Shown here piece after piece: positions 5,895 to 35,070 of a stretch of 64,000 bases of DNA (the first letter of the stretch is position 1; each line of letters opens with the position of its first letter). Both the position numbers and the translations under genes were made by a program. The notes beneath the pieces were generated by a model. It saw nothing but the letters and a program-made list of their open reading frames with translations, searched no databases and had not been told where the DNA came from. Source of the stretch: Mesorhizobium sp. 65-26 (GTDB taxonomy: Bacteria; Pseudomonadota; Alphaproteobacteria; Rhizobiales; Rhizobiaceae); the NCBI GenBank assembly GCA_001899205.1, contig MKVL01000010.1:453914-517913 (forward strand), given 5' to 3'.

Positions 5895-6051
5895 AAGAGG
5901 CGGCGCCGAGCGTTCCGAGCACGATCCTGGCATTGGCCAATTCTGCCGAAAATCCTGAGCCCAACAAATCCCGCGTGCGATGCGTGCGTGCTTGCGATCG
6001 GTCGCGCCGCTATCGCCCCCCATGTTCGACGCCAGCCGGTGGAGACAGTCA

Positions 6052-6834
6052 ATGGTCCACGTCATTCCTCTCTCAGTCGCCCTGCGCCGCAACGATGCCG
6101 GCAATGCGGTGCGGCTTGCAGATGCCTCGGCGGCGGGTGAGGCGGCTCGGCCGCTCGATCCCTACTGGCGGGCGGTTGCGGAGCACTATCAGCAACGCGT
6201 GGCGCGGCAGCAGGCCTTCGACACCGAGATCGCCGCGCGCAGGCTGGGTGGCGAGATCGCTCAGGCCGAGGCCGACACCGCGGCGAACGCGCCGGCTGAC
6301 GGGGAAGGCCTGCACCACGCCATGTATGGCGAAGTCGATCGACACACCGGTCGTGTCGTCCAGAAAGGCCGGTTCGACATGCTGTTCGACGATTTCATCA
6401 AGCAGGCGCCGCCCGAACTGCGCGCTGGCCTCGCCAGCCGCAAGCCAGCTCTGCGAGAGGCAGGCTCAGTGCGCATGGCGGTGCGGCAGCTTGAGCGCCG
6501 CAGCCAGTATGAGCAGGATCATCTGGCGGCGGTCCAGGCCGAAGAGCTCGATGCCATTGCCAAAAGCGATCCGGATGACATGCCCGCTTTCGAGACCGCC
6601 CGCCGCGCCGGCCTCGACCTCATCGCCAAGATGAACCTCGACGCCGAAAGCAGGCAAAAGGCCGAAGCCGCCTGGCGCGAAAGCACGGCAAGGACGCGCC
6701 TGGAAGCTCTGATCGCGCGGGATCCGAAGCGTGCCGCCGAGATGCCGAGCGCCGGATCGATGGCCGGCGACGGCATGAGCGGGACCGTGAGCATGCCGCC
6801 TAGCGCAGGCGCGCCAGATGAGTCGGGGCGGTGA
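6052..6834 (+). CDS. ejection-protein-like paralogue 1 (N-terminal module only)
   Basis: A 260-residue protein; ATG 6052 follows GGAGAC by 6 bases. It is closely similar along its length to the N-terminal third of the proteins at 12228 and 23315: shared FDTEIAARRL, NAPADGxGLHxAMYG, PELRAGLASRKPALREAGS, YEQDHLAAVQAEELDAIAKSDP and GLDLIAKMNLDAESRQKAEAAW blocks. Mostly alpha-helical, it ends in a Gly/Ser/Pro linker. The third copy sits where T7-like phages keep internal virion (ejection) proteins, hence the name. Its stop overlaps the GTG of the next ORF, so the pair may act as one translation unit. Confidence 0.7.
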   Translation: MVHVIPLSVALRRNDAGNAVRLADASAAGEAARPLDPYWRAVAEHYQQRVARQQAFDTEIAARRLGGEIAQAEADTAANAPADGEGLHHAMYGEVDRHTGRVVQKGRFDMLFDDFIKQAPPELRAGLASRKPALREAGSVRMAVRQLERRSQYEQDHLAAVQAEELDAIAKSDPDDMPAFETARRAGLDLIAKMNLDAESRQKAEAAWRESTARTRLEALIARDPKRAAEMPSAGSMAGDGMSGTVSMPPSAGAPDESGR

Positions 6835-12227: not shown

Positions 12228-14431
12228 ATGGTCCATATCATCCCTCTCTCCGTCGCACAGCGCCGGCCTGGCAACGCAGTGCGATATCCGGTCTCCGCGG
12301 CAGGCCCGCAGTTCGACGACCATTGGCAGGCGGTTGCCGAGCGCCATGAGCAGCGCATGGCGCAGCAGCGGGCCTTCGATACCGAGATCGCCGCGCGCCG
12401 GCTGAACGATGAGATCGCCAAGGCGGAAGCTGATGCGGTGGCCAACGCGCCCGCCGACGGTGCAGGCCTGCACGACGCCATGTACGGCCAGGTCGATCCG
12501 CGCACCGGCCAGGTGGTGAAGACCGGCCTCTTCGACACGCTGTTCGGCGATTTCCAGGAGCAGGCCCCAGCCGAACTGCGCCCCGGCCTGGCCAGCCGCA
12601 AGGCCGCGCTGCGAGAGGCCGGCTCTTTGCGCATGGCGATGCAGCAGCTCCAGCGCCGCAAGCAATATGAGCAAGACCAGGTTTCGGCGGCGCAGACCGA
12701 CGAGCTCGACAACATCGCGCGGAGCGACCCGAACGACGCCGCCGCTTTCGAGGCCGCGCGCCAGCGTGGCCTCGATCTCATCGCCTCTATGGGCCTAGAT
12801 GCGCAAGGCAGGTCTCAGGCCGAAGCCGCCTGGCGCGACCGCACGGCAAAGTCGCGTGTCGAGGCGTTGATTGCCGGCAATCCGCAAACAGCGCTCGATC
12901 TGCTTGGACTGAGAGGTTCTTCCAGCAACCAAAGTAATCTGCCCGATCAGGGCGTCGATAGCATGACCACCGGCTCTGTCGCGCGGAACGACAACTCTGG
13001 TTTGTCTGGCGAAAAGGAGGGGCGCCTTCACAAGGCCGACCCAAGCGAGCGGGTAGGGCAGGCGTTTCTCGACAAAGCCCCCATCGACGCGCTGCTGGCT
13101 CAGCTATCGCCTGGTTCATACGATGACGTTGTCAGGCAAGCACGCAGCGCGGATGCCGCGAGCTTTATTTCGAGGCACGCCAATCTCGACACCGACGCGC
13201 AGAAGGCAAAGGCCGCGATAGACAATATGGAGCCCTATTCCGGTTCAAGGCATGACGACACCGAATTCGCTCAAGTCTTCGGCGCCGAAGAGGGCGGCAA
13301 GAGGTCCAGAGCCTTCAACTGGAGGGCAGATGTGAGCCCATATCTAGCCGACATGCGCGTGAAGCCGACCAACGAGGTCGACGCGTCCATTTTCGCGGCG
13401 AAACCCATTCCGAACCGATTCTCGCCGAAGCAGGACCCTGAATTATACAAGCTCGATCAGGCACGCTTTGAAGAGGATGAGAAGCGTCATGAACTGAACG
13501 CGGACGCCGCCGCGTTGGTTATCCAACAGAGGCAGGTCGACCCTGCTGCCTACGCCCGCAGGGTCAGCCCCAGCCTCGATGCTGCGCTCAAGGATTTATC
13601 GACGCCGCAGAATTTGCAGTCTGCGCTCGCCAAGTCATTTGCGGCTCAGCGTCAGTTGGGCATTGCAAAGCCCCAGCCGCTGCCTCGGTCCGATGCCGAG
13701 GGCCTGCTGAGGGCCTGGGGCGATTCACCTGATCCCGAGGAAGCGCGTCGGCAAGCGCTGGAGGGGATAGCGGACCCGAGGTGGCGCAAAGCGTTGGCTA
13801 AGCAGTTGGATGACATCGGGTTGGCTCGACCACAGGCGCGGGCCGCGGATGGGGTGGATTCGAGCGCAGACCGATCTGACGGTGTCGATTCCGAGCGACC
13901 CGCAAAATTTGCGAAGTCTATCTATCTGTCGCCTGCAGACATTCTTCGCCTCAAGAAAGCGGTAATGACAGAGTGGCTGCAGATCGACGATGAAGACGAA
14001 GCGAGAGGCGTCCTCGACGTTATACTGAACAGGTACGTCTCTGGGCACTTCGGAAACGATTTTCGCGAGCTTCTAAACAAGAACGCCCAATTTACTGCCA
14101 TAAATAGCGAAATAAGTAGGAAAAACGGACAGCATGACGTTGACCAGCTGTCGATATCTGACCCAAGATTCCCTAGAGTATCAAATCTGATTGATGAGTA
14201 TTTATTGCAGCGAGCAGCTGGAGCGCGTGCCGTGGCCGGAACTAGGTTGAATTATGCAAATCCAGGTGAGTCCGATCAAAAAAGTCAAGCCTGGATAAGG
14301 GTATTAAAGACGGAAAGTGGCTTGGGCGACAATTCTACGGCACGGCAAAAGACAACGTTCCGTTCCGTCCTAAGGAGTTTGGGATCGAGCTTCCTGATGA
14401 TTATTATCCTGATGCGATGACACCCCCGTAA
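12228..14431 (+). CDS. ejection-protein paralogue 2 with SleB-like cell-wall hydrolase C-terminus (frameshifted)
   Basis: The uninterrupted frame runs to 14420 (730 residues), but its last 45 codons look non-coding. A -1 shift at the A6 run 14278-14283 gives a sensible ending (LDKGIKDGKWLGRQFYGTA...FGIELPDDYYPDAM) and a stop at 14429-14431. Residues 1-230 are the paralogue module. A long helical region follows. From about residue 570 the ARGVLDVILNRYVSGHFG...QFTA...LNYANP pattern resembles SleB-type peptidoglycan hydrolases, which would locally open the wall during DNA ejection. The shift may be a mutation, a sequencing error or slippage. Confidence 0.7.
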
Positions 14432-22808: not shown

Positions 22809-23315
22809 ATGTGCTCATTGGAACTGATCGGCATGGCGATCTCTGCCGGCGGCGCGCTCATGCAGGGCGTGCAGGACAAGCAACTCTCCGACTACCAGGC
22901 GAAGGCCTACGAACAGCAGGCGCGGGCTGAAGCTCAATCGGCTGCCTTCGAGCAGAGCCAGGAGCGCCACAAGCAGGACCTGCTACAGGCACAGGCGCGC
23001 GCCCAGGCAGGCGCGTCCGGTCTCGGCATGGCCGGCTCGCCCGCCGAGGTGCTGGTGGCGAACGCCCGCCAGGGCCAGATGGACCTCGATGCGATCGAGT
23101 ACGGCTCGCGGATTCGCCAGAACAACCTCCAGGACCAAGCCGCCATCTCGCGCTTCTCCGGTGGCCAGGCGCTGACCTCCAGCTTGTTCAAGGCCGGTAG
23201 CAGTTTCGTCAACGACCTCTCCGGCCTCTACAAGCCGGCCAACGCCGTGAAGTTGGGCACCAACGTCTTTCCGCTCGCCCCGGGTGAGAAACTTTCGACA
23301 GGAGGGCTCTCCTGA
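22809..23315 (+). CDS. internal virion protein, gp14-like
   Basis: A 168-residue protein with an N-terminal hydrophobic Gly/Ala segment (LIGMAISAGGALMQGVQ), then a helical Gln/Ala-rich region (YEQQARAEAQSAAFEQSQERHKQ cut by short turns) and a GLGMAGSPAEVLVANARQGQ motif typical of gp14-like proteins. In T7, gp14 forms the outer-membrane part of the DNA ejection channel. Its stop overlaps the start of the next ejection gene (TGATG). Confidence 0.75.
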   Translation: MCSLELIGMAISAGGALMQGVQDKQLSDYQAKAYEQQARAEAQSAAFEQSQERHKQDLLQAQARAQAGASGLGMAGSPAEVLVANARQGQMDLDAIEYGSRIRQNNLQDQAAISRFSGGQALTSSLFKAGSSFVNDLSGLYKPANAVKLGTNVFPLAPGEKLSTGGLS

Positions 23316-25693
23316 TGGCCAGCATCCCTTTGAACACTGCGCGGCGCGGGCTCGATACCGGCAATACGGTTTCATATCCGGCGGGTTCGCCCCTGGGAGC
23401 CGCAGTCACGGGCTTCGGCAATACGCTGAGCGCCATCGGCGAGCGCCACCGCGAGATGCAGGAACAGCAAGAACGGCTCGCCGCCGCTGTCCAGAGACGC
23501 CTGTTTACCGAGCGCGTGGCGGAGGCCGAAAGCCAGGCTCTGACGAACAGTCCACGCGACGGGAGCGGCCTGCACGAGGCGCTTTATGGCCAGGTCGACC
23601 CCATCAGCGGTGAAGTGGTCAAGCCTGGCCAGTACGATCTGATAGTCAACGACGTGCTTGAACAAGTGCCTTCGAGCCAACGCGCGGCCTTTGTCAGGCA
23701 TGCCCAGGCCGAGCGCCCGATCGGCGCGCGTCGCGCGGCGCAGGCACAGCTTCAACTGCGCGGAGCCTACGAGAACGACCAGTGGGAACAGGCGCGCGGA
23801 GCGTGGCTGAAGAGCATCGCGGGCGGCGATCCGGACAACGAGGCGGCGTTCCAGGCGCGGCGCCGGGACGGTTTGGATTTCCTGGCGACGATGGCGCTCG
23901 ACCCGCAAATCCGGCTGCAGGCGCAGAAGGCCTGGGAGCAGGATCTGGCGGCAGCACGGGTGAGTGCGCTTATCGGCCGCGATCCGAGGCAGGCCCTGGC
24001 CCTGCTGGGGCAAAAGCTGCAAGGCGCGGGGCGATCTGTCGTGGATGCGATGGCGGCGGCTCCGCAGGCAGGTCAAGCGGATCAGGGGGATCAGATCGTT
24101 CCGGGGATCACATCGGAGGTTGCCGCCGACGCGGCGGCTACGTCCTCTCAAGATCCCGATGTCGCGCGGATGACGGCGGCAAAACCGTGGATCACGAATC
24201 TCTCGCCCGATGCGCGCGCCGATCTCGGCCACGAGGCAAAGCTCGCGACGACGGCTGAGCAGGTTTCAATTCGCAAGACGATCGAAGAGGCGGAAAGCCA
24301 GGTTCAGTATGCCATGAATAGCATGGTCGACTATGCCGGCCCACTTCCCAGCGACGAGGACTACGAGAAGGTTTTCGGGCCCACTGAAGGATCGCTGCGC
24401 TCTCGCGCCTTGAAGATCAACGCCAACATTGGCGCACAAACGCGCAAGATGCGGGGATGGTCGAACCAGGAAATCCGTTCCGCACTCCGCGAGGATGAAC
24501 CTCGTCCCGGTGCTTCGCCCGAAGAGGCGGCGCGCTATGAGCTGTTCGCAGCCGCCGCACAAAGCACGCTTCAACGCAGATACGACGATCCGGTCGGATA
24601 TGTCGAAACCACGTTTGGATACGATGCCCAGGACTGGAGTACCGTATCAACGCCGGAGCAGTACAAAGCCGCCATAGGAAGGCTCGTTGCAGCTCAAAGG
24701 GGATTGGGCTTTCAACGAATCCTGGCGCTGCCGCGAGCGGCGGCTCGAGATCTGGCGATCCGGTTCAATGATCCGGGTGTTCCTCGCGAGCAGCGCATGT
24801 TCGAACTCAGCTCGATCTTCCTGGGGATTCGTGATCCTGAAGTGCGCCTCGCCATGGCCCGGCAAGTGATGGCCGCCAGCCGTAGCAACTTGCAGGTGCG
24901 CGCCACGACAGACCCGGATCCGGGTTCGAAATCGGTGGACGCTCAACTTGACGGTATTGCGGAGGATCTGTCGGCGATCGCGGTGAATCCGGCCTGGGTC
25001 CAGTTCGAGGCGCGTCCGATCTGGCAGAAGCCCTTCACTGCCGCTGACGATATCGTCCGGCTGACCGCCAACGGCGCCACGCTGGGGTGGGGCGACAAGT
25101 TCTCCGCCGGCCTTGATTCTTGGCTGAACGATGAGAGCTACGATGCGGCGCTGGCACGAAACCGCGCCGCCACGGAAGATGCCCAGAACCGCTCTGGATC
25201 GGCGGGAACGGTGGCGGATCTGGCCGGCGGAGCGCTGACCGGAGCCGGCATCGAAGGTGTTGGCAGCCGTATTCTCGGAAGGCTTGGTGCCGCAGGTATC
25301 ACCGACGGACTGAGTGGCATAAAGCGCCTTATCGCCGACACTGCCCTGATGGGGGCCCAGGGGGCTGGATATGGAGGGTTGGAGGCTTTGGGCAAGGATG
25401 AAGATTTCTGGGCGGGAATGGCCAAAGGGGGCGGACTGGCGGCGAGCAACAATCTCCTTGCCAAGGGCGCGGGCTCGATCGGCCTGGCGCTGGCGGAGAA
25501 ACTGCCGGCCAACCTGGATTTGGGCAAGCTTTTGGCAAAAGCCGAGAGCCCGCTGTTTTCCACGGTCAAATCATCTCCCGCCGAAATCATGAACGCCCTC
25601 GGGGAAGCCGCATCGACCGAAGGGGAGCGGCAAAGGAAGAAGCGAGAGCTGCGGGAAACTCTCGCGCCCGGCGCCGACAAAAAGCACAACTAG
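23315..25693 (+). CDS. ejection-protein paralogue 3 (large internal virion protein)
   Basis: A 792-residue protein coupled by TGATG to the gp14-like gene, the standard place for gp15/gp16-type ejection proteins. Residues 1-230 share the module of the genes at 6052 and 12228 (NSPRDGSGLHEALYGQVD, YENDQWEQARGAWLKSI, DGLDFLATMALDPQ). Helical middle blocks (AKPWITNL, YDDPVGYVETTFGYDAQDW) follow, and the C-terminal 180 residues are Gly/Ala-rich and hydrophobic (TVADLAGGALTGAGIEGVG, GGGLAASNNLLAKGAGS), suited to membrane insertion. No lytic domain is visible. Confidence 0.78.
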   Translation: MASIPLNTARRGLDTGNTVSYPAGSPLGAAVTGFGNTLSAIGERHREMQEQQERLAAAVQRRLFTERVAEAESQALTNSPRDGSGLHEALYGQVDPISGEVVKPGQYDLIVNDVLEQVPSSQRAAFVRHAQAERPIGARRAAQAQLQLRGAYENDQWEQARGAWLKSIAGGDPDNEAAFQARRRDGLDFLATMALDPQIRLQAQKAWEQDLAAARVSALIGRDPRQALALLGQKLQGAGRSVVDAMAAAPQAGQADQGDQIVPGITSEVAADAAATSSQDPDVARMTAAKPWITNLSPDARADLGHEAKLATTAEQVSIRKTIEEAESQVQYAMNSMVDYAGPLPSDEDYEKVFGPTEGSLRSRALKINANIGAQTRKMRGWSNQEIRSALREDEPRPGASPEEAARYELFAAAAQSTLQRRYDDPVGYVETTFGYDAQDWSTVSTPEQYKAAIGRLVAAQRGLGFQRILALPRAAARDLAIRFNDPGVPREQRMFELSSIFLGIRDPEVRLAMARQVMAASRSNLQVRATTDPDPGSKSVDAQLDGIAEDLSAIAVNPAWVQFEARPIWQKPFTAADDIVRLTANGATLGWGDKFSAGLDSWLNDESYDAALARNRAATEDAQNRSGSAGTVADLAGGALTGAGIEGVGSRILGRLGAAGITDGLSGIKRLIADTALMGAQGAGYGGLEALGKDEDFWAGMAKGGGLAASNNLLAKGAGSIGLALAEKLPANLDLGKLLAKAESPLFSTVKSSPAEIMNALGEAASTEGERQRKKRELRETLAPGADKKHN

Positions 25694-25825: not shown

Positions 25826-26008
25826 CTACGGCGGGTTTCCTCGATCGTCGGGAGCGGCCTCGCCAATCTTTTGACGGGATGAGCGCCAGACGAGATAGAG
25901 CTGTCCCATCTTCCTGACCGGAACCCGCCGGTCGCGCTGGCTGGTTCGCAGTTCTCGACAGGTTTTTACCTTCAGGGTTCCGCCTGGCAGTTTGATGTGC
26001 AGTGCCAT
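25826..26008 (-). CDS. small-protein family copy A
   Basis: A 60-residue minus-strand protein, one of six paralogues in this region. It has the family blocks IKLPGGTLKVK, a CRELR variant of the usual YRELR, and RRVPVRKMGQLYLVW (one Trp of the IWW pair replaced), plus a variable tail. Basic, no signal or membrane segment; the core probably folds as a short helix followed by a beta-hairpin. It sits just after the third ejection gene, convergent to it. Function unknown. Confidence 0.65.
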   Translation of the reverse strand: MALHIKLPGGTLKVKTCRELRTSQRDRRVPVRKMGQLYLVWRSSRQKIGEAAPDDRGNPP

Positions 26009-26087
26009 GCCGCCACTTTCGTTTCACAACGGGGCGAGAACGGGGTAGGGGCCTCGAGGCACCTGAAGGGAAGCTGGGTTCTCGTGG

Positions 26088-26222
26088 TCAGTCCGGCCAC
26101 CAGATGATGTAGATACGGCCGAGCTTCAGCACCGGCACCCGCCTGGCGCGCTCGCGCTCGCGCAGTTCGCGATAGGTTTTGATCTTCAGCATGCCGCCGG
26201 GCAGTTTCAGGCGAAACGCCAT
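26088..26222 (-). CDS. small-protein family copy B (minimal form)
   Basis: The shortest member at 44 residues, ending right after the conserved core: MAFRLKLPGGMLKIK, YRELRERERARR, VPVLKLGRIYIIWWPD. Because it lacks a tail it defines the minimal domain. GAGGGGGC precedes the start at 26222; the open frame upstream of that Met is not conserved between copies. It is separated from copy A by 79 bases and oriented the same way. Function unknown. Confidence 0.7.
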   Translation of the reverse strand: MAFRLKLPGGMLKIKTYRELRERERARRVPVLKLGRIYIIWWPD

Positions 26223-26671
26223 TCGAGCCCCCTCGCTATGTCCGCCGCGATGGTTTTTCGCGCCCATACTGATGAGGGCGCAAGTCAATTTTACGTTATG
26301 CTAATGGAACGCTTCGCGTTGCATTTTTAGGCGATGGGAGTTGCCCTTTCGCCGTTTGGTGCCGGCTGTTCGCATCCGGCTAAAGGACGCCGGCCAAGCT
26401 GAGTGGATGGTCTTAACTCGGCAAGGGAGCACGGACAGGGCGACCCGTGCAACTTGCCGTCGAGATGACGTCTCGACCTCGATTTTTCATCAGAGGCCAA
26501 ATCTCCGGGCGAGGTGCTGGCGGCAACCCATCACTGGTACGACGCCGGCACCCATGAGGTATGCAGGGCGGCCGTCGTGCCACCTCCGAGCTGTCACCGC
26601 CCACTTTGCCCAGTTTTTGAAGAAATCAGCCCTGGCTCGTTTTTGCGAGCCTTCTTGATGGAGCAAGCCCC
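26223..26671. other. intergenic region upstream of the tail spike
   Basis: This 449-base gap separates small-protein copy B (minus) from the tail-spike gene (plus) and must contain their divergent promoters. A TTGACT sequence on the minus strand (plus-strand complement about 26282-26287) is a candidate -35 for copy B. I see no further member of the small-protein family and no convincing ORF. Confidence 0.4.
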
Positions 26672-29600
26672 ATGGCCCGACCCGCAGCAGCCGCCGTTCG
26701 CCTGTTGACCGGCGAACGTGAACCCGTGCGCCTCGCGACCACCGTTGATATCGGCCTTTCCGGCCTCCAGCGCATCGATGGCACAATGACCGAGGTGGGC
26801 GACCGCGTGTTGGTGAAGGACCAGGCCGACTCGACGCGGAACGGCATCTACACCGCCAGCGCCGGCTCATGGTTCCGCGCGGCGGACGCGCGGACGAGCC
26901 GCGAGATGCAGAAGGGCACGACCGTCCATGTGCAGTTGGGCGCCGTCAATGCAGACCGCGTGTTTTCGTTCGTCGCCGAGGCCCCGGTGGTCGGCACCGA
27001 CCAGATCGCCATCGCGCCTTTCCTACCGCCGGACCTGAATGGAGCGGTGGAGGATGCGGAGACTGCTGCCGCGAACGCTGCCGCCTACGCGGGGCAGGCG
27101 GCGGCGAGCGCTACGGCGGCCGCCGCCAGCGCGGGGCAGACCGCAGCCGATCTGGCTGCCACGCATGCGGACGTCGTTGCGACGGCTGCCAGCCTTGCCA
27201 ACACCCAGCTCGCCTCGGCGGCCTCGGGCGTGTACCCCAGCGCCTACACGACGTCGCTGCCCAAGGGCGTGACCGGAACGACCGGGCTCGTCGGTGGCAC
27301 GGGCGGCGCCAACGGCACGTTCGCGCTTGGCATTTCCGGCGGATCGATATCGGGCGCAGCGGGCACGTTCACCGTGGCCGGCGGCGCGATGACGGCGATC
27401 AACATCACCAACCCTGGCCTTGGCAGCGGCACGACGCCGCCAACGCTCTCCTTCACAGCCTCGGCAGGCCTGACCGGCGCCAGCGCAACTGCGGTAGTGG
27501 GGAACCTGATCGCGGCGCAGAAAACTTATTGGGCGCTGTCGACGGACGGGGCGTATCTCCAGCTTTATCAGAACGACGGGACGGCGACGCCGGCGGTGGT
27601 GGCGAACGCTGCGCTGGGCGCGAAAGCTATGATTGATGCTTTGGCCAGCCTTACCGGTTCGCGCATCGCCAATACCGTCCCGGTTACAGGAACTGGCACC
27701 GCCCTCGCCAACGCAAACGTCTACTTCGAACCGACCTCCCTCAATACCTTCGATGAATTCGTGACGGGACTGTCGGTGGCGATGTCGGCCGATGGCGTGG
27801 TCCGGATCGTCGTGTCGAAGCTGGAGGATGATAGTACGCTTTCCAATGTCGGCATCGTGTCGCAGACATTCAACGCTCTTGCCGGCGTCTCGACCATTTC
27901 GGGGCTGGAAATCTCGAAGCCTGCCGGCTGCGTCATCGGCATTCAGGCGGTTTCGGGCGGCTATCCTCTGTACACCACCGGCATCATTCCCAACGGCGGC
28001 TCCCGTTGGCATTCGGCGGCCATCCCGACGAGTCATACAGCGAAGACGGTCACGACAACGAACGGCATCCAGTGGAGTGCGGTTCTGACCGGGGAAGTCA
28101 CGATCAAGGCGCGTCGCACTGATGCGCAGGGAACGGCGATCGGCAAGGGCGCTTTGGTCGGCTGGTCCAGTATTGTCGCGAGTGGCACGAACACGCCGGC
28201 TAATTACAGCACTGTCCAGCAAGTGTCCGCCGCAGCCGACAGCTACATCACAGGCATCCAGGTTGGCGCGGGCGCGTCCGCCACGGCAACCGTCTTCGCT
28301 GTGAAGATGAATCCCGACAACACCATTGCCGACATCAAGAACGCGACCCCGATCACGCTTATCAACGGCGTCGCAAATCTAGCCACGTCGATTGCGCTTC
28401 CGGCTGGTTACCGGCCAGCTATCACAGGTGGCGCCTATAAGTACCAGGCTAACAACAATCCGACCGGCCTGCGCGTTCACCTGAAAAGCGGTGTGATGGC
28501 GATCGGCGACACGTTGATCGATAGTGCCTCCCATCGCTTCGAGGTCAACTTCACGGTAGAAAGCGGGCTGACGGCTGATGCCCATCGTGCAATCGCGCTG
28601 GCTTCACAGGCAGGCGGGAACACTGGGCTGGGTTTGCTGTCAGCGGCGGACAACACTGGCGTCTTGGACGCGACCGCGATCTTGTCGGCCGCGGCTGTTG
28701 CGCACCCGTTTCCGTACGTCCCACCTGGAACCTTTGCGGTGACGGCGATCCCTAACAATGGCAAAGGTTTCTGGGGGCCTGGCAAGGTGATAGTCAACGG
28801 CGTTCTCATGTCGACGCCAGAGAAGCCGGAATTCGGCTCGAGGTTTTTGAAACTGCGTGCCGCGCTGATGCCGCAGATTGCTACGAACTCCTGCGTCATC
28901 ATCAATGGCGACAGCATTAGCAACGGAGCCTATGCGACCAATCCTAGGACGAACCATGTCGGCCGTCTGACGCATTTTGCCAACATGGGTATCGCGCTCG
29001 ATGAGGCCGTTCTGGTCAACTTCGACAACGCGGATACCTCGGGTGGCAACGCCTTTCATGGGCTGACGTTTTCGAACCCTTCAACTCCAACCTACGGTAC
29101 CGGGGGCCCTGTCGGAAAATCGCTGATACTCCAGCCTGCGCAAGTGCTGACGCTGTCGGCGGCGGCTCATGAAAAGCTCGATCTTACTTATCAGGGCGTG
29201 TCTGGGGGGCAACTCGCCTTCGCCTACAATGGGACCACCTATGCAACGGTGTACACTGCGGCGACCGGCAACGACGTTCTCGCCGCGCTTGGATCCACCG
29301 GCCAGACCGGCAGTGGAACGTACACCATTACCAACACTGGATCGGTCGCGATCGAGGTCACCTCCCTGATGCGGTTTGGGGTCAAGGTCGCGGGCAGCCC
29401 GCCTCGGCTGTATGTCTGCCGCATGGCGCATGGATCCTATACCATGGCCAGCTTCACGGTTTCTCGCATGCAGTCGATGCTGCGCATTGCGACGGCAGTC
29501 GCCGGCGGAGCAAACCACTTGGTGATCCCCGCGCTGGGAACGAATGATGCCGTGGGCACAAATCTGGACTATGGTCAGATGAGGCAGGCAACCCTCGATT

Positions 29601-29872
29601 ATGCCGGGCGCTGGGTTACGGCCGGCGTTCCTGTCGCGAACATCCTTCCGATCATGCCGTGGCGCTGGGCTTCCTACGGTACCTCCAATTTCCAGAATGA
29701 GCTCGGTGGCATCCGCCAAGCATACCGGGAGCTTGGCGTGCGCCGTGTGATCCAGACGGATGCTTTTGACTTCGTCAGTGAAGGCCTAGCCAGTGATGGG
29801 CACCCGAACGATGCGGGCTTTATTGCGGAGTTCAACGCCATGGTCGCGGCGCTATGCGACGGGGCCATCTGA
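26672..29872 (+). CDS. tail spike/fibre with C-terminal SGNH esterase domain
   Basis: A 1066-residue protein; GGAG precedes ATG 26672. Residues 15-115 form a fibre-attachment domain ([30 protein letters not shown]). An Ala-rich helical stalk (125-190), a Gly-rich region and beta-rich repeats follow. From about 735 an SGNH/GDSL hydrolase is recognised: NGDSIS with Ser748, GTND at about 956-959, and a C-terminal SDGHPND with Asp1042/His1044 as triad partners. Such spikes bind surface polysaccharide and remove O-acetyl groups. A minus-strand acetyltransferase gene overlaps its end by 21 bases. Confidence 0.8.
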
Positions 29873-30409
29873 CAATGCCCTGTACGGAATGACCTTGGCA
29901 GGGTTGCCGGCCACTATAGCACCAGGTGGTACGTCTTTGGTCACCACGGCGCACGCTCCCACAATTGCTCCATCACCGATGGTCACGCCTTTGAGTATGC
30001 TTGCGCCGAAACCTATCCAGACACGGTTTCCGATGGTCACCGGCGCGATCTTAATGCCGGTCCAAACCTTCTTGCCTTGGTGCCAATTCGGGATGTCGTG
30101 CTTGCGTAGCTCCCAATCAGGCGAATGCGAATTGTGATCGACGATGGTGACGTTCCAAGAAAGGATCGTGTCCTCGCCGATCGTGATGCTTTCGGCGGCA
30201 ACCAGGTGGCTTTTGCCAATATAGGTCCGATCACCAATGGTGATTTTGGCCTCGCGACGATCGTACGAAAACACGTTCTGAATGATGCAGTCAGTGCCGA
30301 TGGAGTGGTTGCCGCGGCGAGCCGTACGAACTGCGTTCGGGCCGATCTTTGTGCCGGGGCCAGCGTTCACGCCGAGCAGACGGTGGAGCCAAGACGGTAC
30401 GAATGGCAT
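29852..30409 (-). CDS. hexapeptide-repeat O-acetyltransferase (cargo gene)
   Basis: A 185-residue left-handed beta-helix acetyltransferase. It shows repeated [IV]-x-IG hexads ([55 protein letters not shown]) and the C-terminal [16 protein letters not shown] signature. The catalytic His of this family is likely in TIVDHNSHS. It would transfer acetyl groups from acetyl-CoA to a sugar of the lysogen's O-antigen or capsule. Overlapping the 3' end of an esterase-bearing tail spike, it fits a serotype-converting gene that blocks superinfection. Confidence 0.85.
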
Positions 30410-30939
30410 CAGTGTAGGTCTCCACTTGGCTGGACGGCTGATTGATCTTCAGTGACCTGTCCGTCGTCTACAGGAAATACGTGATGCCAACAGAACTACT
30501 TGCCGAATTATTGGCAGCTTCCCTAGCCCTGTCTTCGTCGTCGGTCTGCATCACCGCGATAGGGTAGTGTCGATGGGCGATCATCTGGACCGAAAACGGC
30601 AGTTCTATTTTCTAACTGGGATGTCAGTGCTGATCACCACCACAAAATCAGATAATCGTAAAACATACCTATGTCGACATGACAAACGCGCATCCACACA
30701 ATCGTCAGGCGGGCTAGTTTCAGGGGCGCGGACGATGTCACATCGTCGAATGACGCGGTTCGCTCCTTTGGATGTTCGGGAACTGATCCTCAAGCATTTG
30801 CCCGGTCAGCCGAGACGGTAAGGCGTCGTCATTACAGTTTGTGTCGATTAGCAGCAACTGGAGTGCTCTTGTCCGCAGGTCTCTTGGGCTGAAGTTGCAG
30901 CCTGAGTTTTGGATCGTTCGCCCTCACCAATCGGTGTCG
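30410..30939. other. intergenic stretch without recognisable gene
   Basis: Of the ORFs in these 530 bases, the longest (30567-30821, plus) lacks a ribosome site and coding-like composition. Base composition is AT-richer than the phage operon. Nothing else recognised. Confidence 0.35.
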
Positions 30940-31122
30940 TCAAACGTCCGGGTTCGGACCGCCAGTGGATGATTGGGGGGATTTCTGCCGATCAGCCCAC
31001 CAGATGAAGTAGAGTCGGCCCAATTTCCTCACCGGCACGCGCCGGTCACGCTCCGTCGCGCGCAATTCACGATAGGTCTTCACCTTGAGCATGCCGCCTG
31101 GCAACTTGATACGCAACGCCAT
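30940..31122 (-). CDS. small-protein family copy C
   Basis: A 60-residue member with all family blocks intact: MALRIKLPGGMLKVK, TYRELRATERDRR, VPVRKLGRLYFIWWAD, then a polar tail (SPQSSTGGPNPDV). AAAGGTGAT lies about 5 bases before the start at 31122, and a good sigma70-type promoter is visible upstream (separate entry), so it is probably transcribed alone. Function unknown; the conservation of the core against the free tail indicates selection on the core. Confidence 0.72.
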   Translation of the reverse strand: MALRIKLPGGMLKVKTYRELRATERDRRVPVRKLGRLYFIWWADRQKSPQSSTGGPNPDV

Positions 31123-31144
31123 GGGATCACCTTTTGTGCGGCGC

Positions 31145-31174
31145 ACAATATGAACCTTCCCTTGGGGAAGTCAA
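31145..31174 (-). promoter_or_regulatory. sigma70-type promoter for small-protein copy C
   Basis: On the minus strand TTGACT (31174-31169) is followed after 18 bases by TATTGT (31150-31145), 22 bases before the ribosome-site/start region of copy C. A short palindrome (TTCCCCAAGGGAA) lies in the spacer and could be an operator. Confidence 0.55.
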
Positions 31175-31253
31175 TGAAGCGGGACGTCAACCATAGGGCG
31201 TATCTGGTGGTAGGGAGGTGCTACGCTGAAAGCGTCGGATCGAAGCGTCAAGC

Positions 31254-31442
31254 TTAACGAAAGCTCTTCTGGCGTTCTCGTTCGGAATCCTCTCTTCCAG
31301 TGCCCTGGTTGTTCGACCACCAGATAAAATAAACGGAACCCATCTTCATGACGGGTACGCGACGATCTCTCTCTCGGTCGCGTAATTCTCGATAAAGCTT
31401 CATCTTCAGCGTGCCGCCGGGCAGTCTGATGCGCAATGCCAT
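31254..31442 (-). CDS. small-protein family copy D
   Basis: A 62-residue member: MALRIRLPGGTLKMK, LYRELRDRERDRR, VPVMKMGSVYFIWWSN, then a charged tail (TGREDSERERQKSFR). The longer open frame upstream to 31580 is not shared with other copies and was rejected. The start at 31442 has a GAG-type ribosome site and its own promoter. It lies 131 bases upstream of copy C on the same strand. Function unknown. Confidence 0.7.
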   Translation of the reverse strand: MALRIRLPGGTLKMKLYRELRDRERDRRVPVMKMGSVYFIWWSNNQGTGREDSERERQKSFR

Positions 31443-31470
31443 TGCTTCAACTCTATTATGATGGGCGACA

Positions 31471-31499
31471 CTAAAACAACGTTGCTCTCGAATGGTCAA
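31471..31499 (-). promoter_or_regulatory. sigma70-type promoter for small-protein copy D
   Basis: On the minus strand TTGACC (31499-31494) and TTTTAG (31476-31471) are separated by 17 bases and lie about 30 bases before the start of copy D. Together with the promoter of copy C this suggests each copy is an independent transcription unit. Confidence 0.45.
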
Positions 31500-31715
31500 C
31501 GCGGCGCCCTTGACTATTTCTGGGAGCATCTGGGCCTGGGTCAAGTGTTCGAAACTGGCCCCACCTGCCACCATTTTCAACTCAGCGGAGCTTGTCGCGT
31601 TGTTCGACGAATATGCGCCTTTTCCTGAGGCTGCCCGGATAGCCGGTGGGCCTGCCGGAACCGCCGGTCGGTTTCGCCAGCAACGTAAGGGCGACAGCGC
31701 GGAGGAGGCGTTATG

Positions 31716-31898
31716 CTATTCCGGCTCGGTATCCCGCTCGCCTTTGGACGGTCGATCCGACAGTGAACTCGGCCACCAGACGATAAAATAGCCGCCCACT
31801 TGCCATACCGGAACTTCACGCCGCTGCTCGCGCCGGCGCAGTTCGGAATACCTTTTTATCTTCAGCGTGCCTCCCGGCAACCTGATACGAATGGTCAT
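31716..31898 (-). CDS. small-protein family copy E
   Basis: A 60-residue, more diverged member: MTIRIRLPGGTLKIK, RYSELRRREQRR, EVPVWQVGGYFIVWWPS, and a polar tail. The RRVPV motif is REVPV here and the Lys before the turn is replaced, but spacing and the terminal Trp-Trp are kept. GGAGCGCC precedes the start at 31898. Retention of the fold pattern despite drift argues for a real, selected protein. Function unknown. Confidence 0.68.
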   Translation of the reverse strand: MTIRIRLPGGTLKIKRYSELRRREQRREVPVWQVGGYFIVWWPSSLSDRPSKGERDTEPE

Positions 31899-32057
31899 CG
31901 GCGCTCCACGACATGGCCGAGTGACCTGGAGATACGATCGCTGGCGCACGAAGTTTCATCGACAGGGCGTCACCGGCGCATCTCCGGTTCGAAAGGCGCG
32001 CGCCCGCATGGCGCCGGAGAGCCTTGCCCCGAAAGAAGGCAGGTGATGGCGCCGCGC

Positions 32058-32528
32058 CTACGACTGGGCGGCGGGTGTGTAGACCGGCAGGCTGATCTGG
32101 GCGGGCAATCTGTCGAATTCCTCTGCGGAGCCGGGGTGCTGGAAGAACGGCGTTCCGGCCGCGCGCGGGGTAACATTGAAACGCCGTCCGGTTCTAATGT
32201 CTTCGACGATCGAATGCTTGTCCAGGATGGCGACAGCCGAAACCAGCCAACCTCTTATGACACAGACATCGCTGTCCTGGGCCGTTGAGGGTTCCAGCGG
32301 CACGGCGCCCGTGCCGGGCGGACCGCTGGCGGACTGCGGAGGCACGGCTTCGAACGGAACAATACTCGCCGACAATCGCGCGGCGCGAAGTCTTTCGAAA
32401 AGAGTCAAGGACGGTATCCCGCGTCGTAGTCCCCGGGCCGACAGTCCCCCGACTCTCCGGCTCCCCCCGTCACGTTTTCTAGTCTTGCTCCGGTTGTGCG
32501 TCAATCGGGCCACAACCGATGCCCGCAA
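32058..32528 (-). CDS. possible hypothetical protein
   Basis: A 156-codon minus-strand ORF. Its first half is Arg/Ser/Pro-rich and looks non-coding, while the C-terminal half (DVCVIRGWLVSAVAILDKHS, EDIRTGRRFNVTPRAAGTPF) has a plausible protein pattern. Only one Met, at 32528, and it overlaps the end of copy F. It may be a decayed gene or a chance frame. Confidence 0.3.
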   Translation of the reverse strand: MRASVVARLTHNRSKTRKRDGGSRRVGGLSARGLRRGIPSLTLFERLRAARLSASIVPFEAVPPQSASGPPGTGAVPLEPSTAQDSDVCVIRGWLVSAVAILDKHSIVEDIRTGRRFNVTPRAAGTPFFQHPGSAEEFDRLPAQISLPVYTPAAQS

Positions 32529-32748
32529 ATGTCCGCTTGGTGTGGCCGGATTTCCCGATTTCGCGAGCCACCTTAAGCCTCGTATTCTCGAAGTCGCGGC
32601 GGCCTTTCACGACTTCAAGGTTGCGCTCCAGTCGAAAAACACCCCCCGGTTTCAACTCCGGGACGCGGCGGTCGCGCTCGTTCGCACGCAACTCGCGATA
32701 GGTCTTTATCTTCAGCATGCCGCCAGGCAGCTTCAGTCGAAACGCCAT
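32479..32748 (-). CDS. small-protein family copy F with replaced C-terminus
   Basis: An 89-residue member. The first half matches copy B closely (MAFRLKLPGGMLKIK, TYRELRANERDRR, VPELKPGG). After PGG the usual YxIWW strand is missing and an unrelated 50-residue basic tail follows (VFRLERNLEVVKGRRD...). AAGGAAA lies 1-2 bases before the ATG at 32748, an unusually short spacing. It could be a broken copy or a fusion with a new tail; the intact first half suggests recent change. Confidence 0.6.
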   Translation of the reverse strand: MAFRLKLPGGMLKIKTYRELRANERDRRVPELKPGGVFRLERNLEVVKGRRDFENTRLKVAREIGKSGHTKRTFAGIGCGPIDAQPEQD

Positions 32749-32938: not shown

Positions 32939-33067
32939 TCAGTTGAAGAACAGGTCAAAGATCTGCAGCGCCACGTAACTCCAGAAGACGATAGCCAGCA
33001 AGACAGCAGCCGTGACCGCCGGTCCGACTTCGCGAGCTGAGTTGCGTGCCGCCAGAAAGATACTCAT
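32939..33067 (-). CDS. 42-residue single-pass membrane protein
   Basis: A short ORF with an excellent GGAGGAAG site about 5 bases before ATG 33067. The product has a charged N-terminus (MSIFLAARNSAREVG) and one hydrophobic helix (AVTAAVLLAIVFWSYVALQIF). The frame extends upstream, but without comparable signals. It sits just before the lysis cassette on the opposite strand. A regulator of lysis or an exclusion peptide is possible; unknown. Confidence 0.55.
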   Translation of the reverse strand: MSIFLAARNSAREVGPAVTAAVLLAIVFWSYVALQIFDLFFN

Positions 33068-33534
33068 GACGACTTCCTCCACATCCGGGCGCGATACGTA
33101 ATGGTCCACTATGCCGTGAGCTTGCGTCACGCATCCCCCAAATAGGGTAGGCGCTTGGTCTATGTCATAGCGGCGGAGTTTGTCACTTACGTGAAACCAC
33201 CAGCCAAGCCGGACGCCTGGCTCCAAAGGTGAATGACTCCGGTCAAAGCGATGTCGCGCTTGGCTGCGGTTCTGTCGATCGTTTCAGCTTGCCAAGCCGC
33301 GGTTCCTGGGCCGGCGCGCCTGCTGACACTGTTGATCCCGTGGATACGATCGGCAAGTGTTCCGTCGTCTCCGATGGCGGCCGCGAAAACTCCGCCAGGC
33401 GCGATTTACAAAAGCGATGCGTCGGCAATGTGTTGGGCTTTCGGCTGTGCAAGCTCAGGGTCTTCGGTGCAAGCCGAGGCTTCTGAAATTCTCTTAAAAG
33501 TTCACTCTCTGACCTTTGGCGGAAAGGACACCTC
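33068..33534. other. intergenic region before the lysis cassette
   Basis: This gap of 467 bases lies between the small membrane protein and the endolysin. Overlapping ORFs exist (33229-33486 and the start of 33233-33982) but lack a convincing ribosome site and composition. It probably carries the lysis-cassette promoter. Confidence 0.35.
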
Positions 33535-34272
33535 ATGGACAAGGCGAAGTTCTTCGCCGGGTTGCGCTCGCGCGAGTCCGGTGTTTTCGGCACGTCACTT
33601 TCTCAGCCCCAGGTCGAGGGCGTGGCGCGCATTGTGGATGAAGGCCAGAGCCGAGGCATGCAGCTTCGGCAACTGGCCTATGTGCTGGCGACCGCCTACC
33701 ACGAGACCGGCGCGAAGATGCAGCCTGTCAGGGAAGCAGGCGGCGAGAAATATCTGCGGTCCAAGCCGTATTATCCGTGGGTGGGTGAGGGGCTTGTTCA
33801 GGTCACTTGGGAGGCGAATGCCCGCAAGTTCGGCGCGTCAGCTCCGGGCCAGCTCATGGAGTGGCCTGTCGCCACGCGGGCCATCTTCGACGGCATGTCG
33901 AAAGGCATGTTCACGGGCAAGAGGCTGGCCGATTACATCGCCGGCGACAGGGTCGACTATGTCGGCGCCCGGCGCATCGTGAACGGAATGGACAAGGCAT
34001 CGCTGATCGCCGGCCATGCCAAGGCATTCGAAACCGCGCTGCGAGCGGCCGGCTATGTCGGCCAAGCGCCGGAGGCGTTGCCAACGCCACAGCCGGCCCC
34101 ACCGGCGGCCGTCCAACCTGCGCCGGCCATGTCACCAGCGTCTGCTGCGCCTGCCGTCCCCGAGCCGCCTGTGGCCGGCGCTCAGGTCGGTTCAACGCCG
34201 CCTCAATCCGGCGCCAGTTGGTTCGCCCGACTGATCTTCGCCTTTCTCAACATCTTCCGTAAAGGAGCATGA
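33535..34272 (+). CDS. endolysin, glycoside hydrolase family 19-like
   Basis: A 245-residue protein preceded by GGAAAGGAC. The N-terminal 155 residues match the chitinase-class-I/lysozyme fold: YVLATAYHETGAKM with Glu57 as likely catalytic acid, a second Glu near 71, and VGEGLVQVTWEANARKFG, equivalent to the GRGxxQxTGxxNY motif. It cleaves the glycan strands of peptidoglycan at lysis. A Pro/Ala-rich linker (about 175-220) leads to a C-terminal hydrophobic segment (WFARLIFAFLNIF), so it may be membrane-tethered until holin action. First gene of the lysis cassette. Confidence 0.85.
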   Translation: MDKAKFFAGLRSRESGVFGTSLSQPQVEGVARIVDEGQSRGMQLRQLAYVLATAYHETGAKMQPVREAGGEKYLRSKPYYPWVGEGLVQVTWEANARKFGASAPGQLMEWPVATRAIFDGMSKGMFTGKRLADYIAGDRVDYVGARRIVNGMDKASLIAGHAKAFETALRAAGYVGQAPEALPTPQPAPPAAVQPAPAMSPASAAPAVPEPPVAGAQVGSTPPQSGASWFARLIFAFLNIFRKGA

Positions 34273-34683: not shown

Positions 34684-34801
34684 GGGCGTCTGCGCCATCT
34701 GGGGCGGGATCACCTATTCCGCTTCCCGTGATACGCCCGAAACCGTGCTCGAGGTCCGCCGCAACAACGCCAGGCGCCAAGCCTATTGCGAGGGCAAATG
34801 A
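34583..34801 (+). CDS. outer-membrane spanin lipoprotein (Rz1-like), embedded
   Basis: A 72-residue lipoprotein starting inside the i-spanin gene in another frame (101 bases of overlap). The lipobox Ala-Leu-Ala-Thr-Ala-Cys24 follows a hydrophobic run (LLLAALCALATA). The mature part has two more cysteines and a CAIWGGITYSASRDTPETV motif seen in o-spanin-like proteins of rhizobial phages. Its stop overlaps the next start by 4 bases. The nested layout itself is strong support for the function. Confidence 0.75.
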   Translation: MRNICRNSARPLLLAALCALATACQTTRSTGIDKGVCAIWGGITYSASRDTPETVLEVRRNNARRQAYCEGK

Positions 34802-35070
34802 AAGACGATCACGCGCAACGGTTCGGCGAACTCGATGAGGCCGTGCAGGAATTGCTTTTTCGCATGAGGCCGGAACATGTCGAGACGCTGGAATATCTCT
34901 CCACCCTGCCGAGGGACGAGGTTCGCGGCCTGGTCAAGATGTTTCGGGACGTGAAGGCGGTCAGCAGGTTCCTGCGTTGGGCCATCATCACGCTGGTGGC
35001 CATCTTTGTCGGCGGGGTCGCGCTTGGCGAGAACATCGCCAAGGTGGTGGGCTGGATCAGGAACCGGTAG
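34798..35070 (+). CDS. membrane protein of the lysis cassette
   Basis: A 90-residue protein with a hydrophilic helical N-terminal two-thirds (MKDDHAQRFGELDEAVQELL, PEHVETLEYLSTLPRDEVRGL) and one C-terminal transmembrane segment (WAIITLVAIFVGGVALG). It is coupled to the o-spanin by ATGA overlap and is the last gene of the phage block. A single C-terminal helix with a long cytoplasmic part suggests an antiholin or other lysis-timing protein rather than the pore. Confidence 0.65.
   Translation: MKDDHAQRFGELDEAVQELLFRMRPEHVETLEYLSTLPRDEVRGLVKMFRDVKAVSRFLRWAIITLVAIFVGGVALGENIAKVVGWIRNR

Follow-up and report, generated by a model that had tools for sequence, protein, structure and literature searches.

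Six minus-strand open reading frames in the window (the whole 64,000-nucleotide stretch of Mesorhizobium sp. 65-26 DNA analysed here) make up, as judged from their sequences, one new family of tiny basic proteins that is nameless in the libraries scanned. In Mesorhizobium prophages a three-gene array of this family recurs, in which a PhaR-type palindrome and a palindrome in the promoter spacer precede the middle and last genes. With a probability of about one half, this is a lysogenic-conversion ('moron') array of small basic regulators that would be partly wired to the carbon storage of the host.

The six copies and their family

The copies, all on the minus strand, were designated A (25826..26008, 60 aa), B (26088..26222, 44 aa), C (30940..31122, 60 aa), D (31254..31442, 62 aa), E (31716..31898, 60 aa) and F (32479..32748, 89 aa), and start at 26008, 26222, 31122, 31442, 31898 and 32748, respectively. 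The first-pass annotation had assigned these six reading frames to one family. This was borne out by the presence of the frames, by the alignment of their cores and by a profile built from five of the cores, which retrieved all six copies from their own genome (E 3.3e-27 to 1.7e-18). Copy F, which was not part of the profile, gave the weakest match of the six. The count of six was too low, as the same profile found nine copies in this genome (6.84 Mb, 42 contigs); the three that had been missed lie outside the window, at C10:854490-854615, C25:559916-560041 and C25:641685-641810.

In the alignment of the six copies the residues M1, L7, P8, G9, G10, L12, K13, K15, E19, L20, R21, R27, V29, P30 and G35 are invariant, and the tails of the paralogues differ. 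The single core of three blocks that had been described for all holds with limits in F and A; B consists of the core only. F is without the third block, where RRVPELKPGGVFRLERN is found and no IWW, A contains CRELR instead of YRELR and ends in VWR, with W42 replaced by R, and E carries the variants YSELR and REVPV. Copy F, with its B-like N-terminus and run-on tail, is probably a decaying copy. Two other B-like genes of the same genome (loci L048 and L050) also stop after 44 aa (...WWPD), which argues that the core-only protein is maintained as such and is no truncated remnant. Separate start signals had been attributed to every copy; Shine-Dalgarno-like sequences indeed precede B, C, E and F, but they are weak for A and D (by eye), and a consensus scan placed a promoter pair directly upstream only at C.

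The absence of a recognisable family name was confirmed in the libraries scanned. For the six window copies, searches of Pfam, PHROGs and NCBIfam (E up to 1) yielded nothing that could be accepted, the lone match below cut-off being that of copy D in NCBIfam (E 0.03, far under its cut-off). For 36 relatives only weak matches were obtained in Pfam (E up to 10), each with one or two members, and no match of note to the defence models of PADLOC (best E 0.02, in 2/36). The best sequence match in the PDB had an E of 2.2, and no relative of known function was found there. In the open-licence literature, judged from titles and abstract openings, nothing was found on this tiny-protein family or on a PhaR-controlled prophage gene.

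Coding and selection were analysed in 80 distinct full-length cores of 126 nt from the window and the fetched loci. None of the 80 contains an in-frame stop, and in each of the other frames between 14 and 80 of the cores are broken. The entropy at codon positions 1, 2 and 3 amounts to 0.72, 0.39 and 1.21 bits. The median NG86 dN/dS is 0.195, as calculated over the 1,721 of 3,160 core pairs with dS under 1.5; the other 1,439 pairs were saturated or undefined in dS and left out of the median. By these codon-based measures the 42-residue core is under purifying selection, and the dN/dS check that had been suggested for it came out in favour of a maintained protein. Within the window, copies A to E are separated by dS values of 0.76 to saturation and dN values of 0.14 to 0.43, which indicates old paralogues that have been kept at the protein level. 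Most copies are conserved paralogues rather than fast diversifiers.

The net charge of the 80 cores ranges from +5 to +9 (median +8), which would be compatible with the binding of nucleic acid or of an acidic protein face. For the 44-residue core a fold of strand, strand, short helix, strand and strand is predicted (pLDDT 86.3). Comparison of this model, a monomer of the core, with the structures in the PDB gave no significant match.

A profile check for homologues elsewhere, also proposed earlier, revealed a family conserved at the protein level in other genomes. Neither of the results named beforehand as refuting the original proposal, a lack of such homologues or a dN/dS near 1 with frequent stops, was obtained. 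It is carried by 21/121 related genomes, 20 of the 21 belonging to the genus of the window, Mesorhizobium, with its own genome counted. At the level of the order it was found in 10/397 genomes and at that of the class in 2/385, the protein of the second having itself been in the profile. The 45 named loci come from Mesorhizobium, Aquibium, Tianweitania and one Hyphomicrobiales bacterium, as found with a single peptide pattern by which distant members are missed; relatives are sparse in Hyphomicrobiales outside Mesorhizobium. The family is present on 12 proviral contigs and on 2 of 72,556 plasmid records, both from Mesorhizobium, and tblastn gave no match to phage isolates among 50,697 phage records.

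The prophage array and copies elsewhere

The cargo zone of a prophage had been proposed as the location of the copies, and phage genes are indeed found around them. Matches to PHROGs in the window include a head-tail adaptor, a major head protein, tail proteins and an endolysin, which places the copies within a prophage among late genes. Between the two copy groups lies a tail fibre or spike gene (26672..29872, plus strand) that matches PHROGs virion and tail-fiber families and has no Pfam match. The cargo beside the array is a hexapeptide-repeat transferase (29852..30409, minus strand; PF00132, E 1.7e-12), a probable acyltransferase, and a similar transferase also neighbours the copies in relatives. 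At the other side a 56-aa hydrophobic protein without Pfam match (32939..33109, minus strand) takes the place of a hydrophobic protein of 58-70 aa elsewhere, the two being likened by position and hydrophobicity. The other border of the cassette is formed by the endolysin (33535..34272, plus strand; phrog_181 lysis, E 4.7e-20; no Pfam match).

Comparison of the loci showed, at the level of sequence and gene order, that a three-gene array recurs in Mesorhizobium prophages. It was recognised in 29 fetched loci that contain three or more copies, a first-type gene among them, at spacings of 289-490 nt; 24 of these loci, some of the 29 being one strain from two collections, have distinct leaders and constitute the non-redundant set. 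The endolysin and the tail fibre enclose the array, whose genes run opposite to the late genes. In the 19 loci for which the neighbourhood was displayed, the usual order is endolysin (on the other strand), the 58-70-aa hydrophobic protein, the three array genes, varying cargo, often a methyltransferase, and the tail fibre. A hexapeptide transferase, in either orientation, or a 248-aa protein lacking a Pfam match can make up the cargo. In the window the order is hydrophobic protein, F, E, D, C, transferase and tail fibre; the methyltransferase is absent, and A and B are added beyond the tail fibre. E, D and C occupy the places of the first, middle and last array gene, relative to which A, B and F are extra copies. 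Copy E is of the type that groups with the first array genes. D and C both group with the last-gene class by motif and by tree, but the tree is based on 42 columns with 41 of its 86 inner branches open, so that D and C have no one-to-one assignment to the middle and last array genes.

In two loci (L120, 8242-8443; L121, 6382-6583) the full middle gene is immediately preceded by a partial duplicate of itself, with an undetermined base at the junction; either the array has grown by slippage or the assembly is faulty here. At the right end of the window prophage lies a 90-aa gene (34798-35070). By eye, it resembles a gene (L050, 10189-10449) that neighbours a B-like copy on a different contig of this genome. 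The latter region is perhaps a phage remnant. Three window genes (6022-6834, 12228-14420 and 23315-25693) have alike beginnings (..IPL..A.R...GN...) by eye and are perhaps repeated internal virion genes; a module of the window prophage may be duplicated, or a second one present.

Outside the arrays, nine loci adjoin a gene resembling smc (by eye). Seven of these contain an E-like and a C-like gene, and in two (L049, of the same genome as the window, and L155) the E-like gene stands alone. Solo copies occur at many other places, and solos and pairs without visible phage genes beside them were seen by eye. In a genome of another bacterial family, a solo copy (L078, 10109-10222) adjoins an apparent gene-transfer-agent or phage tail cluster (by eye). 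Six solo copies (L074, L133, L140, L147, L168 and L174) lie near surface-polysaccharide clusters. A surface-polysaccharide role was considered and rejected, as there was no significant excess of such solos over random windows. A polysaccharide marker gene was detected in 6/27 test loci and 4/59 random windows (Fisher p 0.065), and in 4/23 test loci after like loci had been merged by eye (p 0.21), although the marker proteins had been drawn from the test loci, by which the test set was favoured. In this comparison 12-20 kb was scanned per locus, and of the 60 random windows drawn, one contained a family locus and was left out.

Putative operators upstream of the array genes

In Bradyrhizobium, PhaR footprints contain the sites TGCGACGCACAA, TGCGTCGCACAA and TGCGCTGCACAA, and passages of PMC6201568 give the consensus TGCRNYGCASMA, which is the one that was applied here. 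A similar motif, as well as the sequestration of PhaR by accumulated polyhydroxybutyrate (PHB), is described for Sinorhizobium in passages of PMC12542648. Upstream of copy C the PhaR-type palindrome TTGTGCGCCGCACAA is located (31134..31148, minus strand). It includes TGCGCCGCACAA, which fits the published consensus with zero mismatches, and it is the only such site in the window. The two consensus matches in the 64 kb are both strands of this one palindrome, and as 1.2 are expected, the match by itself is not beyond chance; the argument is based on where the site lies and on the relatives.

In the 24 non-redundant arrays the PhaR consensus was present at most 100 nt upstream, in either orientation, of 0/24 first, 22/24 middle and 24/24 last genes, compared with 5/1,082 other genes and 179/21,600 random stretches; these arrays are mutually related, so the array counts do not represent independent events. 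At the two middle genes without a site a partial duplicate lies in between. The element TTCC-N5-GGAA was found within 100 nt upstream of 0/24 first, 19/24 middle and 21/24 last genes (controls: 4/1,082 other genes and 150/21,600 random stretches). These motif counts show that PhaR-type and spacer elements lie upstream of the middle and last array genes and that the first genes have neither. The presence of a PhaR-type site and a spacer-palindrome promoter on these two genes is new here. When copies were sorted by motif, PhaR sites were found before 17/18 of the D-motif, 35/62 of the C-motif, 0/40 of the E-motif and 0/4 of the B-like class (F included); this sorting puts window copy D in the C-motif class, and the recount in the 24 arrays goes by place.

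Among the loci with one or two copies, 1/37 has a PhaR site. This locus, L122 of Mesorhizobium ventifaucium, contains TGCGCTGCACAA in a region resembling a different prophage (by eye). The rarity of the site in such loci suggests that the PhaR wiring belongs to the prophage copies and not to the family as a whole. A gene for PhaR itself (PF07879) was present in 6/6 Mesorhizobium genomes tested, including that of the window, and in neither of two genomes from a distant bacterial family in which a solo copy occurs. Searching three genomes for TTGCTGCRYTGCACAA with up to one mismatch yielded 17 hits genome-wide and 0 in the control. Three of the 17 are at array copies. Other hits precede two PHB-depolymerase esterases (PF10503), an acyltransferase (PF01757) and four DUF1127-type genes, one of the four scoring over Pfam's cut-off. 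A PhaR-type palindrome was also seen upstream of an apparent prolyl-tRNA synthetase gene (by eye) in 3/3 Mesorhizobium genomes searched (L180, L189 and L190).

Copy C is preceded by a sigma-70-like promoter (31145..31174, minus strand), in which TTGACT (31174-31169) is followed by CATATT after a 16-nt spacer or by TATTGT after 18 nt. These two overlapping readings are the sole -35/-10 pairs that the consensus scan placed directly upstream of any window copy; with 4 pairs in 7.6 kb against 2.1 in shuffles, the scan alone is weak evidence. Within the promoter lies the spacer palindrome CTTCCCCAAGGGAAG (31156..31170, minus strand), the lone perfect CTTCC-N5-GGAAG in the window. Copy C is the only window copy with both this palindrome and the PhaR-type site, and A, B, D, E and F have neither. 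A function of CTTCC-N5-GGAAG as operator of the phage repressor was rejected, since it occurs once without mismatch in 64 kb and is thus not a repeated operator of the window prophage.

In the alignment of the 24 arrays, most middle and last genes have upstream TTGACTCTTCC-N5-GGAAG, followed after about 7-10 nt by TGCTGC[A/G]TTGCACA; rows that deviate from this pattern are, for example, L084, L086, L090 and L152. Sequence farther upstream of these promoter elements varies among the arrays, and apart from the elements the upstream sequence differs between copy types. Combined with TTGACT, the palindrome gave 14 hits in five relatives with up to 1 mismatch and 5 in the reversed control. By position, 13 of the 14 lie upstream of family copies or partial copies, two of them outside arrays; the link of the pattern to the family rests on these five relatives. 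When the genome of the window was searched for TTGACTNTTCCN5GGAAG, allowing at most 2 mismatches, 8 hits were obtained and 7 with the reversed control; copy C was missed because its -35 overlaps the palindrome by two bases. Each of four genomes contained 3 to 9 occurrences of the bare CTTCC-N5-GGAAG, compared with 14 to 18 of the reversed control, and some lie away from family copies, so it is not family-specific.

A leader hairpin over the Shine-Dalgarno sequence of E-type genes was considered and rejected: many single leaders fold, but the alignment consensus was no better than column shuffles (38/100 as low). In the last 60 nt before the first array gene of loci L080-L091 and L114-L152, an inverted repeat was noticed that can pair with the Shine-Dalgarno region.

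A possible role, its alternatives and known systems

If the array serves lysogenic conversion, its genes would be active in the lysogen, driven by promoters of their own. PhaR/AniA would repress the middle and last genes through the palindrome in their start region when PHB is scarce, and PHB granules would titrate PhaR and thereby release both genes. The spacer palindrome may act as another operator, to which proteins of the family itself would perhaps bind. By analogy with DUF1127 proteins, which they would resemble in working and not in descent, the products are most likely small regulators that bind nucleic acid or one host protein. It is most likely, although unproved, that they adjust the metabolism or the surface of the host during lysogeny. 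Within the window, control by PhaR would reach copy C only.

The original interpretation of the many diverged copies was a diversifying function such as superinfection immunity, anti-defence or interaction with a variable partner. Read as an arms race, it would mean that immunity, exclusion or anti-defence proteins have been amplified because they face variable partners. Their place in prophage cargo beside likely surface-modifying enzymes and a tail fibre, and the several paralogues with different tails, would suit such proteins. However, the core is under purifying selection, the first, middle and last genes recur at the same place in an order kept across species, relatives are found at sites without visible phage genes (by eye), and the best PADLOC match, with its E of 0.02, is not of note. 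A diversifying function is therefore not supported, and superinfection immunity or anti-defence is improbable. The better reading is a conserved conversion array of prophages in which two of the three genes carry an operator of the host's carbon storage. The chromosomal relatives without visible phage genes nearby also speak against minor virion or tail-assembly proteins, as do the orientation opposite to the late genes and the predicted own promoters of the middle and last genes; despite the nearby tail fibre in the prophages seen, this explanation is very improbable.

The order of strands and helix in AbrB is like that of the core model. Together with the strong positive charge, this predicted order could point to autoregulated swapped-hairpin DNA-binding proteins of the AbrB/MazE type, for example orphan antitoxins acting on CTTCC-N5-GGAAG, and the position of all but one of the TTGACT-palindrome hits in five relatives upstream of family members, with 5 hits in the reversed control, would agree with autoregulation. 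But hhalign against 30 AbrB/MazE-like stretches of related genomes gave a probability of 0.1-0.2 percent, no toxin gene paired with the copies was noticed (gene names by eye), and without TTGACT the palindrome is present at other sites of each genome as well, which leaves this possibility doubtful. The number of copies, nine in one genome, of which some in the family are frameshifted or partial, might also suggest a repetitive mobile or selfish DNA element with an incidental, decaying reading frame. This is contradicted by the codon-position pattern and the dN/dS, and it is hardly to be reconciled with upstream sequences that differ between types save for the promoter elements and with positions that recur across species.

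To return to the conversion array, a more specific version can be put forward tentatively. A temperate phage lineage of Mesorhizobium would have put two array genes under PhaR, the lysogen would make their products only when PHB accumulates, and the proteins would alter host physiology, the surface or the phage life cycle. If this is true, stored carbon, and not DNA damage, would gate the behaviour of the prophage, which could sense how well nourished its host is without involving the SOS response. It would provide a testable link between a prophage cassette and the PHB regulator of the host in nitrogen-fixing symbionts. If only the family is right, there are still conserved small proteins with a fairly confident fold prediction and no significant structural match.

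Several known systems share features with the array. AbrB/MazE proteins (PF04014) are likewise small and basic with a similar order of strands and helix, but no profile similarity was found. DUF1127 proteins (PF06568; CcaF1, YjiS and the Agrobacterium SDPs) are, in the passages that describe them, also very small and arginine-rich, with several paralogues per alphaproteobacterial genome, and a PhaR-type palindrome lies upstream of a DUF1127-type gene in each of the three genomes searched, that of the window included. The two families differ in that there is no Pfam match between them: the DUF1127 model is absent from the matches of the window copies (E up to 1) and from the five families listed for the 36 relatives. 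In addition, the word phage is absent from the searched text of one DUF1127 paper. With the PhaR/AniA regulon of phasins, PHB depolymerases and EPS genes the array shares a consensus operator over the start region and a regulator gene in the host; the word prophage is absent from the searched text of PMC12542648, and the operator described here matches by its letters. The array resembles phage morons in that additional genes, some with predicted promoters of their own and with likely surface-modifying neighbours, are inserted among late genes and run against them, whereas here recurring paralogues of one tiny family are involved, with a host metabolic operator on two of the three genes.
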